This document shows, in pieces, positions 1,947-55,458 of a stretch of 64,000 bases of DNA; position 1 is the first letter of the stretch; every line of letters starts with the position of its first letter. Origin of the DNA: a virus; IMG/VR virus record IMGVR_UViG_3300044825_001895, positions 28,436-92,435 of that record, one strand, 5' to 3'. Below the pieces are notes generated by a model. It was not told the DNA's origin, ran no database searches, and was given only the letters and a program-made list of their open reading frames with translations. The position numbers and the translations under genes are program-made.

Positions 1947-2009
1947 AAATAGGTAAACAAATGTTACGAAACGCTAACGATTCTTAACATTGTTAAACAC
2001 CCGCTAACC

Positions 2010-2096
2010 GAGACCTATGGGTGTATAAAAACGTCTCTCATACCCACAGTGGAGGGTGCTGTGGGGAATAATCGTATCAGTTCGTCCCCCCGAACT
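2010..2096 (+). promoter_or_regulatory. Structured psbA 5' leader
   Basis: About 160 transcribed bases precede the psbA ATG. Helices: GAGAC/GTCTC (2010-2014/2033-2037), CCCACAG/CTGTGGG (2043-2049/2059-2065) and AGTTCG/CGAACT (2079-2084/2091-2096). A GGGTGT stretch (from 2019) can alternatively pair with ATACCC near 2040, so two folds may compete. Structured psbA leaders (PhotoRC RNA motifs) are known in marine cyanobacteria and phages; I cannot confirm which class this is. Confidence 0.4.
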
Positions 2097-2118
2097 TTTA
2101 ACTAACTCTCTTAAACAA

Positions 2119-3198
2119 ATGACTGCTACAATTTCACGTCAACAACAATCGAATACTTGGGAACAATTCTGCAACTGGGTTACTAGCACTGATAACCGTC
2201 TCTATGTAGGTTGGTTCGGAGTCCTGATGATTCCAACATTGCTCGCCGCAACAATCTGCTTCATCATCGCATTTGTCGGTGCTCCCCCTGTAGACATTGA
2301 TGGAATCCGTGAACCAGTCGCTGGTTCTCTAATGTATGGAAACAACATCATCTCTGGTGCTGTTATTCCTTCGTCCAACGCGATTGGACTGCACTTCTAC
2401 CCCATCTGGGAAGCTGCTTCACTTGATGAGTGGCTTTACAACGGCGGACCTTTCCAACTGGTAGTGTTCCACTTCCTCATCGGCATCTATGCTTATATGG
2501 GTCGTGAATGGGAACTCTCATACCGCCTAGGTATGCGTCCTTGGATCTGTGTTGCTTACTCTGCACCTGTTGCTGCTGCCAGCGCAGTGTTCCTAGTCTA
2601 TCCTTTCGGTCAAGGTTCTTTCTCTGATGCAATGCCTCTGGGTATCTCTGGTACCTTCAACTACATGCTTGTTTTCCAGGCAGAACATAACATCCTGATG
2701 CACCCCTTCCACATGCTTGGAGTTGCTGGTGTCTTCGGTGGTTCACTGTTCTCTGCAATGCACGGTTCTCTAGTTACTTCCTCACTGGTTCGTGAAACCA
2801 CCGAGCAAGAGTCGCAGAACTATGGTTACAAGTTCGGTCAAGAAGAAGAGACTTATAACATCGTTGCAGCACACGGTTATTTCGGTCGCCTGATCTTCCA
2901 ATATGCTTCCTTCAATAACTCTCGTTCGCTACACTTCTTCCTTGCTGCTTGGCCTGTTGTCGGTATCTGGTTCACTGCTCTTGGTGTTAGCACCATGGCC
3001 TTTAACTTAAATGGCTTTAATTTCAACCAGTCTCTGCTTGATAGTCAGGGTCGTGTAGTTAACACCTGGGCTGATGTTCTTAACCGTGCTGGACTGGGAA
3101 TGGAAGTGATGCACGAGAGAAATGCACATAACTTTCCTTTGGACCTGGCTGCTGCCGAAGCAACTCCTGTTGCTCTAACTGCACCTTCTATCGGTTGA
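2119..3198 (+). CDS. psbA: Photosystem II reaction centre protein D1
   Basis: 359 residues, the full length of cyanobacterial D1. The ATG at 2119 gives the standard N-terminus [10 protein letters not shown]; an upstream in-frame ATG at 2056 adds 21 unrelated residues and is rejected. Key residues are present: Glu130 (GREWELS, the high-light D1 type), TyrZ 161, Asp170 of the Mn cluster and His190. The tail after Ala344 is the 15-residue extension removed by CtpA. It replaces the rapidly turning-over host D1 in the thylakoid membrane so that photosynthesis continues during infection. The gene is uninterrupted (no intron), but an HNH endonuclease gene follows directly. Confidence 0.98.
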
Positions 3199-3224
3199 GT
3201 TTCGTAAAAACTGAATAATCTAAA

Positions 3225-3252
3225 AGGAGGGACTTGCAAAAGTCCCTTTTTT
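3225..3252 (+). terminator. psbA terminator
   Basis: AGGGACTT / AAGTCCCT stem with a GCAA loop, followed by a T6 run, 27 bases after the psbA stop. Confidence 0.85.
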
Positions 3253-3262
3253 GCTATATAAT
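3234..3262 (+). promoter_or_regulatory. Promoter embedded in the psbA terminator
   Basis: TTGCAA (3234-3239), 17 bases, TATAAT (3257-3262). The -35 lies inside the terminator hairpin, so termination of psbA and initiation of the HNH gene share one element. Confidence 0.65.
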
Positions 3263-3292
3263 AATTGAAGTTAAGAAATCAAAGATTGAATT

Positions 3293-3721
3293 ATGAAAAC
3301 TTGCAACATTTGTGGAGAAACGAAATCACTTGATGAGTATTATATCAATAATTTTGGATACCCTCACGGTAAATGTAAAAAGTGCTATGTTAAAAAACAG
3401 CAAGAAAAATATGACCCAATGAAAAAAAGAAACGAAAACTTAAAAAGATGTTATGGAATAACACTCCAAGAATATAATGAAATGTTAGATAATCAAAATG
3501 GTAAATGTGCCACTTGTGGAACTACTGAACCAGGAGGTAGAAAATCTGGTAGGGGCGGTGGTGCTGATGTATTTGTAGTAGATCACTGCCACGATACTGG
3601 TAAAGTTAGAGGTCTTCTTTGTCATAGTTGTAATAGGGCTATGGGACTATTAGGAGATAATGTAAGCGTTATTGAAAGTATGATTAAATACCTTGAGCAG
3701 CACGAAATTAATGTCTCATAA
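3293..3721 (+). CDS. HNH homing endonuclease, endonuclease VII type
   Basis: 142 residues. The N-terminal zinc-binding pattern CNICGETKS...CKKC is followed by a C-terminal endonuclease VII/HNH core: CATCG, DHCHDTGKVRGLLCHSCN and MGLLGDN. His and Asn of the DHCH...N motif are the catalytic/metal residues. It is a free-standing DNase that probably promotes its own spread into psbA-linked DNA; a homing endonuclease next to cyanophage psbA (F-CphI) is known. It is transcribed from the promoter in the psbA terminator. Its 3' end overlaps the next small gene. Confidence 0.85.
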   Translation: MKTCNICGETKSLDEYYINNFGYPHGKCKKCYVKKQQEKYDPMKKRNENLKRCYGITLQEYNEMLDNQNGKCATCGTTEPGGRKSGRGGGADVFVVDHCHDTGKVRGLLCHSCNRAMGLLGDNVSVIESMIKYLEQHEINVS

Positions 3722-3833
3722 TACTCAACACGAACCTATGCCTAACTGGGTAATCTGGGTAGGCGTAGGTATGATGGTATTTACGGTTCTTGTTTTTGTC
3801 TTATTCACTCTTGGGCAAATTTACTGGGGATAA
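3711..3833 (+). CDS. 40-residue single-span membrane protein
   Basis: The ATG at 3711 overlaps the HNH stop. The peptide has a short polar N-terminus (MSHNTQHEPMPN) and one long hydrophobic span (VIWVGVGMMVFTVLVFVLF), ending IYWG. Size and topology resemble small photosystem or cytochrome b6f subunits, and it sits between psbA and psbD, but I do not recognise it as a named subunit. The ATG at 3738 is an alternative start. Confidence 0.5.
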   Translation: MSHNTQHEPMPNWVIWVGVGMMVFTVLVFVLFTLGQIYWG

Positions 3834-3901
3834 GTGCTAATACTCATTGACTCTTATTATGAAGTATTGTAAACTAAATATGAGAAATCACATAGGAGGC
3901 T

Positions 3902-4048
3902 ATGACTTCTTCAACACTTTCACAACCAATTCAACAAAGGGGGTGGTTTGATGTCCTGGATGACTGGCTTAAACGAGATCGCTTTGTATTTGTGGGTTGG
4001 TCTGGACTATTACTTTTTCCCACTGCTTATTTGGCCCTTGACTGGTAG
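3902..4048 (+). pseudogene. psbD: psbD 5' remnant
   Basis: Begins with the same AGGAGGCTATGACTTCTTC start region as the intact psbD at 5381 and encodes residues matching D2 1-46 ([33 protein letters not shown]), then breaks off after a small deletion at LDW-stop. At DNA level it is clearly diverged from the intact copy (mostly third-position changes), so it is not a recent duplicate. A matching 3' remnant lies at 7032-7064. Together they look like the two ends of a former resident psbD whose middle was replaced by a cassette carrying another psbD. Confidence 0.85.
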
Positions 4049-4057
4049 GACTGCTGA

Positions 4058-4150
4058 ATGACTTTTCTGGGATTGTATCTAATCTTTATTGGTGTGAAGG
4101 GATTGTTTAGAGATTTACAGAGATACAGAGAACAAACTGATAATAGGTAA
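4058..4150 (+). CDS. 30-residue hydrophobic peptide
   Basis: Small open frame directly after the psbD remnant, with a hydrophobic N-terminal half (MTFLGLYLIFIGVKGLF) and a charged tail. It could be a real membrane peptide or chance. No homology recognised. Confidence 0.3.
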   Translation: MTFLGLYLIFIGVKGLFRDLQRYREQTDNR

Positions 4151-4182
4151 AAATATAAAAGACACTTTCTAAACTGGAACAG

Positions 4183-4206
4183 GGGCACTTCGCAGGTGCC
4201 CTTTTT
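4183..4206 (+). terminator. Intrinsic terminator
   Basis: GGGCAC / GTGCCC stem followed by TTTTT. Confidence 0.8.
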
Positions 4207-4217
4207 GATGGTATAAT
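4189..4217 (+). promoter_or_regulatory. Promoter overlapping the terminator
   Basis: TATAAT at 4212-4217 with a weak TTCGCA 17 bases upstream in the hairpin loop. It belongs to the same composite terminator-promoter class as 3225-3262 and 10392-10430. Upstream, 4161-4184 resembles the dispersed element at 56794, 61289 and 63397. Confidence 0.5.
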
Positions 4218-4241
4218 ACTCTCATATACAAAGAGTTTCAA

Positions 4242-4637
4242 ATGCTAAAAACTAAAACTGTAAAGATAGTAAGTGTGAGTGATTGGGATGACTTTGTAAT
4301 CCTTATCTATGGAAAGCATTACAGTTTTCAACAACAAGATGGGTGTAAATCAAGAGGAACTGCTTATTTTACTGTTCCAAATCAATATGATGCGGAAGAG
4401 TTTGATAGTGAGGCAACTACAATCCCATTTGAAGTTAATGGTGAAGAAATGGGTGTGAGTTTTGAAACTTGGTTGAATACAAATTTGGAGGATACTGCTT
4501 CACACTTTGAATCTGATTGGGAGAATAAGTTGTTCTGGGAAAGGAATTTTTATCCAGATGTAAACACAATTGTTTGGGACTTATACAAACGAGGATTGCT
4601 TGAAGAAGGTGAATATATGATTGATATTGATTGGTGA
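4242..4637 (+). CDS. Hypothetical protein, 131 aa
   Basis: Acidic soluble protein with many aromatic residues, ending YMIDIDW. It is expressed from the sigma-70-like promoter at 4189-4217. It lies inside the inserted psbD cassette, between the 5' psbD remnant and a homing endonuclease gene. No family recognised. Confidence 0.65.
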   Translation: MLKTKTVKIVSVSDWDDFVILIYGKHYSFQQQDGCKSRGTAYFTVPNQYDAEEFDSEATTIPFEVNGEEMGVSFETWLNTNLEDTASHFESDWENKLFWERNFYPDVNTIVWDLYKRGLLEEGEYMIDIDW

Positions 4638-4698: not shown

Positions 4699-5280
4699 AT
4701 GAAACATAAGCACCATATTATTCCAAGACATATGGGTGGTAGTGATGACCCATCAAATCTTATTGAACTGACTGTGGAAGAACACGCAGAGGCACACAGA
4801 AAGTTGTGGGAGCAATATGGTAATATCAAAGATTATTGTGCTTGGAAAGGTTTAGAAGGAACTATTGGTAAAGAAGAGATTGTAAGGTTGCTGATGGACC
4901 CAACTGGAAGAGTTCATACAGAAGAAACCAAGAAGAAAATGAGTGAGGCACATAAAGGCAAACCAAAGCATACACCTGAAAGTAAAGAAAAAATAAGTGA
5001 AGCAAGAAAAGGAAAGCCTTTGAGTGAGGAGCATAAAAGAAAAATAGGTGAGGCAGGTTTAGGTAATAAAAGATGTCTTGGAAATAAACTAACAGAAGAG
5101 CACAAAGAAAAACTTTCTAAAAGTATGAAAGGAAATAAAAATGCTTGTGGTCCTCAAAAAGTTAGTGAAGAAGCAAAGAAAAATAGAAGTGAAGCAACCA
5201 AAGAAAGATGGAGAAAATATAGAGAACAAAAAGGATTTGACCCTAACAAACCTATTGATGGTAGATACTCTAAAATATAG
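4699..5280 (+). CDS. HNH homing endonuclease with NUMOD3 repeats
   Basis: 193 residues. The N-terminal HNH core reads [20 protein letters not shown]...[12 protein letters not shown], with the His-His and Asn of the nuclease site. Residues about 70-150 hold at least three NUMOD3 DNA-binding repeats of the type (H)[16 protein letters not shown]. The C-terminus is basic. This is the classic free-standing phage homing endonuclease layout: nuclease head plus modular DNA-contacting beads. It sits immediately upstream of psbD and, with the HNH-like gene after psbD, flanks it, which fits mobilisation of the psbD cassette. Transcribed from the late promoter at 4662. Confidence 0.85.
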
Positions 5281-5380: not shown

Positions 5381-6445
5381 ATGACTTCTTCTGTTTTACA
5401 GACACCCTCCCAATCACAGCGTGGATGGTTTGATGTCCTTGATGATTGGTTGAAAAGGGACAGATTTGTGTTCGTAGGTTGGTCTGGCCTACTTTTATTT
5501 CCAACAGCATACCTCGCACTTGGTGGGTGGCTTACTGGTATTACATTTATCACTAGTTGGTATACACACGGTATTGCTTCAAGTTTTTTAGAAGGTTGTA
5601 ATTTCTTAACAGCTGCGTTGAGTACCCCAGCAGATGCTCTCGGACATTCCCTTCTACTTCTCTGGGGTCCTGAGTCTCAAGGGGATTTCATCAGGTGGTG
5701 CCAACTTGGGGGACTCTGGACTTTTGTGGCGCTCCACGGATCTTTCTCTCTGATTGGATTCATGCTTCGTCAGTTTGAGATTGCTCGTCTTGTAGGCATT
5801 CGTCCTTATAATGCTATTGCATTCTCTGGACCCATTGCGGTCTTTGTGAGTGTCTTCCTGATGTATCCTCTGGGTCAATCCAGTTGGTTCTTTGCACCAT
5901 CGTTTGGTGTTGCTGCTATCTTCAGGTTCCTTCTGTTCCTTCAGGGTTTCCACAACTGGACCCTCAACCCCTTCCATATGATGGGAGTTGCTGGTATACT
6001 GGGTGGAGCACTGCTCTGTGCTATTCACGGAGCAACCGTAGAAAACACACTATTTGAAGATGGTGACCAAGCAAATACCTTCAAAGCATTTGAACCGACA
6101 CAGGAAGAAGAGACCTACTCTATGGTTACTGCTAACAGATTCTGGTCTCAAATCTTCGGTATTGCGTTTAGTAATAAGCGTTGGCTTCACTTTTTTATGC
6201 TATTTGTTCCTGTTATGGGTTTGTGGACTTCCAGCATCGGTATCATTGGTCTTGCCCTTAATCTTCGTGCTTATGATTTTGTAAGTCAGGAGATTCGTGC
6301 TGCAGAAGATCCGGAATTTGAGACCTTCGTAACAAAGAACATATTATTGAATGAGGGAATTCGTGCTTGGATGGCACCTGTAGACCAACCTGGAGCAAAC
6401 TTTGTATTTCCAGAGGAAGTTTTGCCTCGTGGAAATGCTTTATGA
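5381..6445 (+). CDS. psbD: Photosystem II reaction centre protein D2
   Basis: 354 residues, full-length D2, ending [12 protein letters not shown]. Membrane helices and cofactor residues are intact, for example Tyr162 (TyrD, +2 relative to usual numbering), His191 and His199. It forms the reaction-centre heterodimer with D1 in the thylakoid membrane and supports photosynthesis in the infected cell. The start is fixed by AAAGGAGG and the conserved MTSS...[15 protein letters not shown]-terminus. It is flanked on both sides by homing-endonuclease genes and, further out, by 5' and 3' remnants of a different psbD, so it appears to have replaced the earlier copy. Confidence 0.98.
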
Positions 6446-9137: not shown

Positions 9138-9472
9138 GTGTAGCAGTAGGAGAAAAGAAAAAAATGGCAGAAAATAAAACTAAGATTAATAAAGTTCTGC
9201 CTCATGAATATGGATGTGAAATTCTTTTAGAAAAAACTACTGTAGAAAAAGCAAAAGATTCTTCACTTCCTAATGATGCATACTTGATTTGGTATGTTGT
9301 GGGGGGTGAAGAGCACATTGATCTAACTCGTTGCCCCAAGCGAGTGAATCTTTTTGATATGTATTATGATAAGTATGGTCCAGGTGCAGTTAAAAAGATT
9401 GATTTTGGATATGGTAGAACTAATCCAAAACTTTGGGGATACAAACAACCAGAGAAGAAAAAAAGAAAATGA
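9134..9472 (+). CDS. Hypothetical protein, 112 aa
   Basis: ATGA-coupled start (MSVAVGEKKKMAENK). Contains a compact middle region (YLIWYVVGGEEHIDLTRC) and a Lys/Arg-rich end. Function unknown. Confidence 0.65.
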   Translation: MSVAVGEKKKMAENKTKINKVLPHEYGCEILLEKTTVEKAKDSSLPNDAYLIWYVVGGEEHIDLTRCPKRVNLFDMYYDKYGPGAVKKIDFGYGRTNPKLWGYKQPEKKKRK

Positions 9473-50954: not shown

Positions 50955-53003
50955 ATGGCTGCAGAAATCAGAGTAGATACTATCAAATCTAGGAGTGGTA
51001 TTAATACTATTTCCTTAAACAATAATTCATTTTCTGTTCTTACTAATGTTGGTATTGGTACTACAGTTGCAACATCTAAATTAGAAATCGTAGGTTCAGT
51101 TAATATATCTGGTATTACAACTATTGGTACAGTATTAATTACTTCAGGTATTGTAACTGCAACTTCACCATCAGGAATTGTTACTTACTATGGTGACGGT
51201 TCTGAGTTGCTTGGTGTAATTGGTGGTATTGGTATTCAATCAGCAGGAACTATCATAGGAACCGGAGTAACCACACTTAACTTTATTGGTGCTGCAAATA
51301 CAATCAGTGTATCGGGTTCCACGGCAACAATAAGTATTACTGGAAATTCCGCACCAGTCACAAAGATTTCAACAGCAACATTTAATCCAGTTGGTTTTGC
51401 AACAGCAACAATCAATATCAATAATTCTACATCAGTTGGTTATGCAATCACTGGACTTTCACCATCCCAAGTAGTGACATTTGATATTAATAGTACTGGT
51501 GGAACAGCAACATCTCCTGCAGTTCAGTGTGGAGCAGCGGGAACAGTATCAGGAACAATTTCATTTACTGCCGCTGGTACTGCATATACATCAGGTTCTC
51601 CAGCAACTCAAATCATAAGATTCATTTCTGGTGGCGACATTGTAACCAAGAACTGGAATATTGTAATTAATCCAATTGAAGCAACAACGGCACTTGGTTG
51701 GGATGCATCTGCTGACACTTATGCTTACTATACCTACGGAACTTCAACACAAATATTAGGTATTGGTGTAACAACAAGAGATTATAAGAATCTTGATGTT
51801 CAATCCAGAATGAGACGCTGCGTGATTAATAACTCTGGTGTTGTTCAATATTACTTAGATGCTGATGATAGTACTAAAAAAGCAGGTGATTGGTTAAGAA
51901 TTGTAGAAAGAAATGGACTTAATGTAGAATACACTGGAGTTCATACAGAAGAATCACATCCAGGTTTAAGAATGGGTGTTTCAAATTGGAGTGCTGGTAC
52001 TTATACGCAAGGTCAAAGAGTCATTCATAATGGTTCTCTATGGGAATGTATTGTCGCATCTACCACAGCAACACCAGCAGCAGGAAGTGTATCATCAAAT
52101 CTTTCTGGTACTGATGGTCAGGTAATGGTAGAAATACCGACATTTAGTGTAAGACATACAAAATCGGGAAATGTGCATACCTTCCAAGTTGGTTTAGGAA
52201 CTACAGTTTCTGGTTCTGGATATGAAGTTCATCCAGCATTTGTAAAGAGTGATAATTCTTATCGTACTCATATTTACTTGGGCGCATATCAAGGAACTGG
52301 AGGAACCACAAGTGGAGCACTGTCTTCAGTTTCTGGTGTCAGTAATGTAGTCAATGCAACTCGTGCAACCTTTAGAACTGCAGCATCAGGAAGAGGAACT
52401 GGATGGCATCAATTGAGTTATTATGAGATGGCAGCTGCGTATCTGCTGATGGTAACAGAGTTTGATAGTGTGAATATTCAAAGAAGACTTGGAAACGGCG
52501 CTCAAGAAGGTTCTGTTTATGTCGTGAATACTGGACTTTCTAATTCCTCTGGTAATAAGTCACAGAACAATTATACTGCTGGTGGGAGCGCTGCAAACTA
52601 TATTACCTATCGTGGTCTTGAGAACATTTATGGTCGTGCGTGGCAGTGGGCAGATGGATTTAATGCAAACACAACTTCAGCATATCTAAACAAGAACTGG
52701 ACAACTTGGTCAGATGATACTTCTACCAATTATACATTAGTTGGAACTACTGCATCAGGAGGTGGTTCTTATCAAACTGATTTCTTAAGTATCAATAATG
52801 TTCTTCTACCATCCACTGCATCTGGTGGTAGTGCAACAACTTATATTGCCGATGGTTTATGGACTTCTACTGGTTGGCGGGTGGCCACTGTGAGCGGCGC
52901 TAATGTTGGTTCGCTTGTTGGTCCTTTCTGCTTGGATCTGGGTAATGGTTCTTCCCTTGCTAGTGCCAACGTCGGCGGTCGTCTTTCTTGGGCGCCTGTT
53001 TAA
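50955..53003 (+). CDS. DGR target: tail-fibre protein with hypervariable C-type-lectin-like tip
   Basis: 682 residues. The N-terminus MAAEIRVDTIKSRSGINTIS and the YYGDGSELLGVIGGIGIQSA segment mark it as a virion fibre. The C-terminal ~300 residues (SYYEMAAAYLLMVTEFDSVN, ENIYGRAWQWADGFN, GWRVATVSGANVGSL) resemble the C-type lectin/FGE fold used as display scaffold by DGR proteins such as Mtd. Codons 639-681 are the variable repeat, matched by the template at 53125-53256 with changes only at template adenines. It is the likely receptor-binding, diversified tip. AATAAATA (50918-50925) is a possible late promoter. Confidence 0.88.
   Translation: MAAEIRVDTIKSRSGINTISLNNNSFSVLTNVGIGTTVATSKLEIVGSVNISGITTIGTVLITSGIVTATSPSGIVTYYGDGSELLGVIGGIGIQSAGTIIGTGVTTLNFIGAANTISVSGSTATISITGNSAPVTKISTATFNPVGFATATININNSTSVGYAITGLSPSQVVTFDINSTGGTATSPAVQCGAAGTVSGTISFTAAGTAYTSGSPATQIIRFISGGDIVTKNWNIVINPIEATTALGWDASADTYAYYTYGTSTQILGIGVTTRDYKNLDVQSRMRRCVINNSGVVQYYLDADDSTKKAGDWLRIVERNGLNVEYTGVHTEESHPGLRMGVSNWSAGTYTQGQRVIHNGSLWECIVASTTATPAAGSVSSNLSGTDGQVMVEIPTFSVRHTKSGNVHTFQVGLGTTVSGSGYEVHPAFVKSDNSYRTHIYLGAYQGTGGTTSGALSSVSGVSNVVNATRATFRTAASGRGTGWHQLSYYEMAAAYLLMVTEFDSVNIQRRLGNGAQEGSVYVVNTGLSNSSGNKSQNNYTAGGSAANYITYRGLENIYGRAWQWADGFNANTTSAYLNKNWTTWSDDTSTNYTLVGTTASGGGSYQTDFLSINNVLLPSTASGGSATTYIADGLWTSTGWRVATVSGANVGSLVGPFCLDLGNGSSLASANVGGRLSWAPV
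52869..52997 (+). repeat. DGR variable repeat (VR)
   Basis: 129 bases at the 3' end of the target gene. Compared with the template it has 17 substitutions, every one at a template A (A to G, C or T), and lacks one AAC codon. The last 18 bases (52980-52997, no A in the template) are identical in both copies and would serve as the initiation region for mutagenic homing. Confidence 0.93.
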
Positions 53004-53018
53004 TATTACGGAATATTG
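53001..53018 (+). other. Hairpin directly after the VR
   Basis: AATATT-ACGG-AATATT (plus an outer T-G pair) begins at the target stop codon, four bases beyond the VR. DNA hairpins in this position promote retrohoming in the Bordetella phage DGR. Confidence 0.7.
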
Positions 53019-53035
53019 TGGAAGCACACGGAGAC

Positions 53036-53064
53036 TTGCGGATTTTTTGCTCTTCGTTTATAAT
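53036..53064 (+). promoter_or_regulatory. Promoter for the template RNA/RT
   Basis: TTGCGG, 17 bases, TATAAT, about 60 bases upstream of the template repeat. It would give a transcript covering the template and the reverse transcriptase gene. Confidence 0.65.
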
Positions 53065-53124
53065 ACATATATGAATTGAGGAAACTTCCATTGCAGTAAC
53101 TTTTGAGTAGGTTTGGTCTATGTC

Positions 53125-53256
53125 ACTGGTTGGCGGGTGGCCAATGTGAGCGGCAACACTAATAATGGTTCGCTTGATGGTCCTTTCTACTTGAATCTGA
53201 ATAATGATTCTTCCAATGCTAATACCAACATCAGCAGTCGTCTTTCTTGGGCGCCT
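53125..53256 (+). repeat. DGR template repeat (TR)
   Basis: 132 bases, non-coding copy of the VR, with ten AAT/AAC codons in phase, which gives wide amino-acid choice without stop codons. The flanking 191 bases up to the RT start contain small hairpins (TTACC/GGTAA; CTGTC/GACAG) and probably form the spacer RNA needed for cDNA priming. Confidence 0.93.
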
Positions 53257-53447
53257 TGGTTTGAGTCTCAGTTGAGTTTCAGTTTACTTCAGTGAGTTTC
53301 CAGTGCTCTTTCACTTCTCTTCGGTTATAGCAAATCTTTAATCGCATTTAGACAAACCTTACCACTCGGTAAAAATACACAGCAACGACAATAAGGATTA
53401 GTAAGTCTTTATGAATTTGAAAATCCTGTCACGACAGAGAAAATGTT

Positions 53448-54494
53448 ATGAAACGAATTGGATTTCTTTACGAAAAAATCTATTCATTTGAAAATCTTCT
53501 AACTGCATATGAAAATGCAAAAAGAAATAAAAAACACTATAAACAAGTTCAAGAGTTTGAAAAAGAAAATGTAGAACAAAAACTTTTAGAACTTCAACAA
53601 ATACTTATTAACCAACAATATAAGAGTTCACAATATCGTACATTTAATATTATAGAAAGAGGTAAAGAAAGGACAATATATTCACTTCCTTTTTATCCGG
53701 ACAGAATTGTTCATCACGCAATTGTTCAAGTACTTGCTCCTATTTGGATTAAGAGTTTCATTAGAGACACTTATGCATCTATACCAAATAGAGGAATACA
53801 CGACGCAGTAAAAAGAATACAAAAAATCAAACATAACTGGAAAAATCACTATGTTCTTAAGTGTGATATTTCCAAGTTTTACCCATCCGTAAATCATCAA
53901 GTATTAAAAAATATACTAAAATTAAAAATTAAAGATAAAAAACTAATAACACTATTAGAAGAAATTATAGACTCCGAAGAAGGTATACCTATTGGAAACT
54001 ATCTTTCGCAATATTTTGGTAACATTATTCTTTCTCCACTAGATCATTATATCAAAGAAGTCCTAAAAGTCAAATACTACTATCGTTATTGTGACGATTT
54101 TGTTTTAATTCATTCAAACAAAAGACACTTACACTACCTTAAAAATAAAATAAATGAATATGTAGCAACACTCAATCTTAAATTAAAATCAAATTGGCAA
54201 GTATATCCAATAGAATCAAGAGGACTTGATTTTGTTGGATATGTCTTTTATGTATCTCACACAATCATAAGAAAAAATAATATTCAAAGATATAAAAAAC
54301 GAATTAAATATAGAAAATATAATTTAATATCCAACATAATCATTCTAAATCATATCAAATGTTTCAAAGGTTGGAAAAAATATGCAAACACAAGAAATCT
54401 AAATAATACTATAGAAACTCCAAGATACTTCAATGTCCAATCATATTTTAGTCAATTACGGAGGAGACTGTCCAGAGATACAAAAGTATCGTGA
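53448..54494 (+). CDS. DGR reverse transcriptase
   Basis: 348 residues, full length for DGR RTs. Motif A KCDISKFYPSVNH (Asp140), motif B IPIGNYLSQ (180-188; the (I/L/V)GxxxSQ form that marks DGR RTs), motif C YCDD (214-217), and a following GLDFVGYVFY block. It copies the template RNA into adenine-mutated cDNA that replaces the VR. AGAGA precedes the ATG. No maturase or integrase domain is present. The gene is very AT-rich. The 3' end overlaps the next gene by 62 bases. Confidence 0.95.
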   Translation: MKRIGFLYEKIYSFENLLTAYENAKRNKKHYKQVQEFEKENVEQKLLELQQILINQQYKSSQYRTFNIIERGKERTIYSLPFYPDRIVHHAIVQVLAPIWIKSFIRDTYASIPNRGIHDAVKRIQKIKHNWKNHYVLKCDISKFYPSVNHQVLKNILKLKIKDKKLITLLEEIIDSEEGIPIGNYLSQYFGNIILSPLDHYIKEVLKVKYYYRYCDDFVLIHSNKRHLHYLKNKINEYVATLNLKLKSNWQVYPIESRGLDFVGYVFYVSHTIIRKNNIQRYKKRIKYRKYNLISNIIILNHIKCFKGWKKYANTRNLNNTIETPRYFNVQSYFSQLRRRLSRDTKVS

Positions 54495-54837
54495 TGGTTG
54501 GTTAGTTCCTGTAAATATAACAGAAACAACTCGTGAAGATAGTTCTGTTTCTTATGATGCTTATCAGGTATTTGTACCAGTTCTCACAGAACATGAACTT
54601 GAAAAAGCATTTGGAGACCTTAAAGACTTATATCCAGAAGACTTTAAGAAAGCAGCATTTTATCATATAAGACAAAAGAGAGACCAATTACTTGTAGAAA
54701 CTGATTGGTTAATCACAAAAGCAAAAGAAACAGGAACTAATATTCCAGCAGCACTTAAAGAATATCGTCAAGCATTAAGAGACCTTCCCGATACTTATGA
54801 GAGTGCTGATGATGTAGTGTTTCCAGTGAAACCATAA
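54433..54837 (+). CDS. Fibre assembly chaperone-like protein, 134 aa
   Basis: RQKRDQLLVETDWLITKAKE and YRQALRDLPDTYESADDVVF are the signature of tail-fibre assembly chaperones (xxR-x-x-LLxxTDW...YRQALRDLP). The start lies inside the end of the RT gene. It may assist folding of the variable fibre. It does not look like the DGR accessory protein Avd. Confidence 0.75.
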   Translation: MSNHILVNYGGDCPEIQKYRDGWLVPVNITETTREDSSVSYDAYQVFVPVLTEHELEKAFGDLKDLYPEDFKKAAFYHIRQKRDQLLVETDWLITKAKETGTNIPAALKEYRQALRDLPDTYESADDVVFPVKP

Positions 54838-55020: not shown

Positions 55021-55458
55021 ATGCTTACATTATATACCAGTGGATACGCTTATAGCAAGCGTCGCTGTGAATCAATTGTAAACTGGTTCATTTCCAAACA
55101 TCTTCCAAGACATCATCTTGAGATTGTTGTCAATCATCGCGGTATGTTGCGCGATGGTGTTTATGGTTGGGTTGGAGTGACTGATTGTGATTGGCGTCCA
55201 AGATCTTTTGAGATTGAACTACACAATCAGTTGAGTCCAGAACATTACGCCGTAGTCCTCCTACACGAACTCTGGCACGTAAATCAACACGTCAAGGGTG
55301 CTCTAAGGGATAAGTATGGAAGGAGGCACTGGAGGGGCATAGAGCACTCAGATACTGACTATTCTGAGCAACCTTGGGAACTACAAGCATTTCAAATGGA
55401 AGCGGTTCTTTATGAAGAATTCCTAAACCACTTGACAGACACCCAACAATCCCTGTAG
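55021..55458 (+). CDS. Zinc metalloprotease-like protein (HExxH)
   Basis: 145 residues with HELWHVNQH (His82, Glu83, His86 and a further His90) and a downstream acidic helix (SEQPWELQAFQMEAVLYEEF) that may give the third ligand. A SprT-like or minigluzincin-type fold is likely. The 183-base gap before it (54838-55020) holds the DGR terminator and a TATAAT at 54949 without a good -35. The substrate is unknown. Confidence 0.75.
   Translation: MLTLYTSGYAYSKRRCESIVNWFISKHLPRHHLEIVVNHRGMLRDGVYGWVGVTDCDWRPRSFEIELHNQLSPEHYAVVLLHELWHVNQHVKGALRDKYGRRHWRGIEHSDTDYSEQPWELQAFQMEAVLYEEFLNHLTDTQQSL

Follow-up and report, generated by a model that had tools for sequence, protein, structure and literature searches.

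We identify, in a T4-like cyanophage, a diversity-generating retroelement (DGR) that has the order target-VR-TR-RT and no Avd, a reading to which we give a probability of about 0.94. The window analysed here is a stretch of 64,000 nucleotides, corresponding to bases 28436-92435 of a 92,435-base IMG/VR record (IMGVR_UViG_3300044825_001895) that represents a fragment of an uncultivated virus. Within it, an adenine-only signature between a variable repeat (VR) and a template repeat (TR), a DGR-type reverse transcriptase (RT), a target fold resembling those of TaqVP and Mtd, a below-threshold spacer match to the RT-17 RNA and the lack of Avd together indicate an Avd-less DGR such as those of crAss-like phages (Table 1). 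The original prediction, made from the window alone, was of a complete DGR in canonical order, and every element is present with the exception of Avd, which was not found.

Table 1 Features of the retroelement and its immediate surroundings in the window, followed by intervals of BPP-1-type cassettes on three related contigs (L numbers denote related loci)
Feature	Coordinates	Strand	Remarks
Gene 5' of target, 167 aa	50390..50893	+	weakly tail-fibre-assembly-like; phrog_4912, E 0.006
Target gene, 682-aa tail protein	50955..53003	+	phrog_5302 tail protein, 258 bits
VR	52869..52997	+	last 43 codons ahead of the final Val codon and stop; 17/17 substitutions at TR A
IMH-like VR end, 19 nt, A-free	52979..52997	+	sequence match; identical in TR
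Hairpin AATATT-ACGG-AATATT behind VR	53002..53017	+	functional evidence weak
TR	53125..53256	+	132 nt; 30 A; 20 programmable codons
IMH*-like end of TR	53238..53256	+	sequence match
TR-RT spacer, putative DGR RNA	53355..53441	+	RF03020 RT-17, full length
DGR RT, 348 aa	53448..54494	+	IGNYLSQ and YCDD; phrog_1423, 383.6 bits; RVT_1
Tail assembly chaperone gene, overlapping RT end	54433..54837	+	Phage_tail_APC, 4.4e-13
BPP-1-type cassette intervals	L131:604-719, 1154-1269; L133:91-206, 1220-1335; L201:2358-2473, 3487-3602

The assignment to a T4-like cyanophage carrying photosynthesis genes, also part of the original prediction, is confirmed by psbA (2056-3198) and psbD (5381-6445), the products of which are 92-94% identical to cyanophage versions, by a gp32 sharing 75% identity with its S-SM2 counterpart, and by tail-tube and gp5-like hub genes in the record. 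This combination of T4-type core genes with psbA/psbD is that of the T4-like (Kyanoviridae-like) cyanophages, and relatives of the gene that follows the cassette (55021-55458) occur in S-SM2 and in further cyanomyoviruses. A search for the gp23 family was silent on the fragment, but it gave no hit in any other record or in any control either and is thus uninformative. The relatives found for the gp5-like hub protein include one at 97% identity (L116), yet those contigs gave no match to the target gene. Since the 92-kb record is a fragment from an uncultivated virus, we infer rather than observe the lytic lifestyle and the Synechococcus host that had been proposed for this phage. A homing-endonuclease-like ORF (phrog_655) lies between psbA and psbD, at 4699-5280.

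In the best alignment of the 129 nt VR with its template, all 17 substitutions (12 A>G, 3 A>T and 2 A>C) fall on TR adenines, 28 of which are aligned, and none falls on any other template base, in agreement with the count given originally. The accompanying claim that the template is otherwise unchanged is not strictly true, since VR is shorter than TR by one in-frame codon (3 nt), a deletion that had been overlooked. The codon is retained elsewhere in the target family, indicating that the deletion occurred in VR, where it sits within the A-rich stretch AAC-ACT-AAT-AAT; it may plausibly have arisen by slippage as the template was mutagenically copied. The codon loss is nonetheless beyond what A-mutagenesis alone accounts for, and counts against the DGR explanation, as does the zero difference between the IMH-like and IMH*-like ends, both of which read TCGTCTTTCTTGGGCGCCT, a string with sole occurrences at the VR end (52979) and at 53238. 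The TR adenines are confined to codon positions 1 or 2 (30/30), mostly in AAY codons, and so the 20 codons can vary with no possible stop, from which we compute approximately 6e17 reachable target proteins. The VR end is separated from the TR start by 127 nt, and TR from the RT ORF by 191 nt.

A hairpin had also been noted behind the target gene, and it does exist there. However, its stem is all A-T and it was not found in close relatives, so that the evidence for it is weak and we reject it as a conserved DGR element; a 6-bp hairpin of any kind occurs in 6 of 59 flanks examined (1.7 expected).

The ORF of the tail protein bears VR at its end, as predicted for the target, and the DGR variable (C-type-lectin-like) region makes up the C-terminal half of the protein. 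A profile search with the C-terminal 400 residues matches TaqVP (1.5e-7), a DGR variable protein with a C-type-lectin fold (PMC6328139) from a Thermus aquaticus prophage. A Foldseek search with the predicted fold of the target likewise places TaqVP first (PDB 5vf4; 1.4e-9) with Mtd next (0.012), from a structure model of middling confidence (mean pLDDT 67.6) whose TM score to TaqVP is about 0.45. The target consequently combines a VR at the 3' end of its gene with the ligand-binding fold typical of DGR targets, seen most clearly in the resemblance to TaqVP and more weakly in that to Mtd. The shared variable-domain fold contrasts with a sequence identity between TaqVP and the target of just 14-16%, and with an unrelated host. 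Additionally, a CBM5/12-like stretch is present at residues 345-371 of the target, scoring 24.8 bits against CBM_5_12, just under the cut-off of 26.2.

The RT carries the IGxxxSQ and YCDD motifs that had been read from the window. Its best PDB match is 8ub7 (1e-42), the sequence of which we take to be the BPP-1 enzyme, while the best group II RT follows at 6e-21, an E-value gap of 21 orders. In a tree of 55 RTs that includes the BPP-1 RT, as had been proposed as a check, the window RT belongs, with full support, to a cluster of ten relatives inside the DGR-type RTs, and two group II RTs serving as outgroups (QGxxxSP, YADD) split off at 100/100. The TR-RT spacer matches an RT-associated RNA family of Rfam, RT-17 (RF03020), with an E-value of 1.9e-5 and 35.1 bits, under the gathering score of 40.4; in two other members of the same DGR-RT group (L011 and L061) the RT-17 matches lie above the gathering score. 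Searches with bAvd found no Avd gene in the record to which the window belongs, whereas the records of L131, L135 and L139 score above the cut-off. The missing Avd, the sub-threshold RNA match and the middling structure model weigh against the DGR reading, although Avd is likewise missing from about a quarter of DGRs and from crAssphage LMMB (PMC7290462).

Among the named phages in the matches listed, the nearest RTs are those of crAss-like phages, with 43-50% identity over 80-97% of the window RT. The DGRs of these phages (crAssphage LMMB, 'lineage 3', PMC7290462) share with the window element the target-VR-TR-RT order, the lack of Avd and a position beside tail genes, and it is this order, together with the missing avd and the RT identity, that places the element with Avd-less DGRs of the crAssphage LMMB kind. 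However, crAss-like phages have a different type of genome (T4-like with psbA/psbD in the window) and infect gut Bacteroidales rather than cyanobacteria, and their targets are very distant from that of the window (cr60_1, 25%, E 1e-5). The DGR of Bordetella phage BPP-1 (mtd-avd-TR-brt) resembles the window element in its A-only VR/TR signature, DGR RT and C-type-lectin-like tail-tip target. Yet BPP-1 possesses Avd (bbp7) within its cassette and a Phage_DGR RNA (RF03022), whereas in the window Avd is lacking and the spacer matches RT-17, and the two RTs are only 32% identical.

We find about 70 related DGR loci in IMG/VR. Among them are two further DGR types, both with Avd and unrelated to the window element, which T4-like cyanophage relatives carry at the corresponding end of the tail-fibre cluster or close to it; contigs that share the downstream genes of the window at 64-92% identity bear different DGRs. 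Four of these (L131, L133, L135 and L137) have a BPP-1-like cassette immediately 5' of the shared gene 55021-55458, containing a bAvd gene and an RT that is 55% identical to the BPP-1 RT; a target with the second domain of Mtd is seen in L133, and Phage_DGR RNA is matched in L131 and L135. A third, unrelated DGR, consisting of target, bAvd, TR and RT, occupies 1993-4303 of another T4-like cyanophage relative (L190), about 8 kb upstream of the shared neighbour gene, with 28/29 changes at A. Further contigs with the same neighbourhood gave no RT.

Decayed versions of the window element occur among cyanophages that are not T4-like. The cultured Synechococcus phage S-EIV1 contains an unannotated DGR remnant (L002:6083-6403; KJ410740.1 21081-21401), in which a homologous tail gene (AHV82155, whose product shares 52% identity with the window target protein across 59% of the latter) retains its VR alongside an intact TR, with 27/30 changes at A and 3/30 at other bases, and in which only two short pieces of the RT are left, N- and C-terminal. 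Three S-EIV1-like contigs (L050, L055 and L056) have just a C-terminal RT piece, at about 9200-9400, adjoining an intact target, and no TR was detected in them. These states of decay suggest repeated RT loss following receptor fixation. A broader proposition, the odds of which we regard as evenly balanced, is that freshwater or brackish T4-like cyanophages offer, at the distal end of their tail-fibre cluster, a recurrent DGR landing site into which three unrelated types (Avd-less RT-17, BPP-1-like with Mtd and Avd, and the third with Avd) were swapped independently, one of them common to the unrelated S-EIV1-like cyanophages, with RT loss then freezing a chosen receptor variant.

Natural variation in related DGRs is concentrated in VR. 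No close relative of the window phage was found: exact-pattern scans of IMG/VR for the VR and TR of the window species returned none, or one chance match (L230). In near-identical contigs from more distant members of the same DGR-RT group (L017/L018/L020 and L035/L036), the differences lie mainly inside VR at TR adenines: L017 and L018 have 20 VR differences, 19 of them at TR A, as against one in the 1,200 nt that follow, and 17 of the 18 VR differences between L035 and L036 are at A. The BPP-1-type cassettes behave similarly, with 19 substitutions between L131 and L133 over about 4.5 kb, 18 of which are in VR (16 at TR A), and 37 substitutions between the otherwise near-identical L133 and L201, every one inside the two VRs (37/37), plus a 39-nt gap in TR. 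Compared with the near-identical L131, 39 nt have been lost from the TR of L133 (1770-1846), whose two VRs are both full length.

Several alternative explanations may be considered for the window element. Two similar repeats lying close together could reflect a recent duplication of the 3' end of the target gene, with ordinary mutation or gene conversion acting afterwards and the adjoining RT being unrelated, yet ordinary mutation would not place all 17 changes on just 28 of the 129 sites (for 17 random mismatches all hitting A, P = 3e-14), and the same pattern recurs at the related loci beside the same RT type, leaving this origin scarcely credible. It is also highly improbable that the RT derives from a group II intron, a retron or a DRT defence system rather than from a DGR: although NCBIfam models for group_II_RT_mat (TIGR04416, 127.6 bits) and Drt3a (72.8 bits) do return scores, these are far under the respective cut-offs of 300 and 200, and the RT carries IGxxxSQ in place of the QGxxxSP of group II sequences and is split from them at 100/100 in the tree.

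The possibility that a once-active DGR diversified VR in the past and is now dead or decaying, as in S-EIV1, gains some weight from the frequency of decay nearby (the RT pieces and non-A changes of S-EIV1, and the three contigs without TR) and from the incomplete cassettes of 66/91 crAss-like genomes (PMC7290462). However, the window RT ORF is unbroken and retains its catalytic motif, the target ORF is open, and every substitution between VR and TR is at an A, all of which supports the DGR explanation and makes an inactive element unlikely.

Under the preferred reading of an Avd-less DGR, the RT would copy an RNA comprising TR and the putatively structured spacer into cDNA, with misincorporation opposite template adenines, and the cDNA would then replace VR, to which the A-free end common to both repeats would direct it. 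TR would remain unaltered, while the C-type-lectin-like tip of the target would be rewritten at up to 20 codons, the probable gain being new receptor specificity on picocyanobacterial surfaces. Activity of the system in the window phage, its passage through cDNA and its role at the receptor are what we infer from this anatomy. Phage DGRs that target tail fibres are the classical case, T4-like cyanophages are a major cause of death in Synechococcus and Prochlorococcus, and the way in which they keep up with receptor resistance is an active question. The main interest of the element lies in its place of occurrence and in the recurrent, partly decayed DGRs around one locus; a programmable tail tip, together with VR-confined variation in related loci, means that mapping reads would offer a direct test of receptor diversification in cyanophages.

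The original prediction knew of no characterised DGR in a T4-like cyanophage, and our literature search likewise found no paper describing one, while the related loci show that the element is not unique. An RT search of 50,697 phage records, 512 of which match PsbA, returned no cyanophage among the matches listed. Large catalogues may hold such contigs without comment (PMC8144416). DGRs have already been reported in lytic phages, and in 2020 were known from only 22/12,354 public phage genomes (PMC7981956). A survey of cyanobacterial genomes found no DGRs in Synechococcus or Prochlorococcus (PMC7517822).

The tail assembly chaperone gene that overlaps the end of the RT is probably part of the DGR module. 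A homologue of this gene comes after the RT, or the RT remnant, in S-EIV1-like relatives, and consequently the module may travel as target-TR-RT-chaperone.
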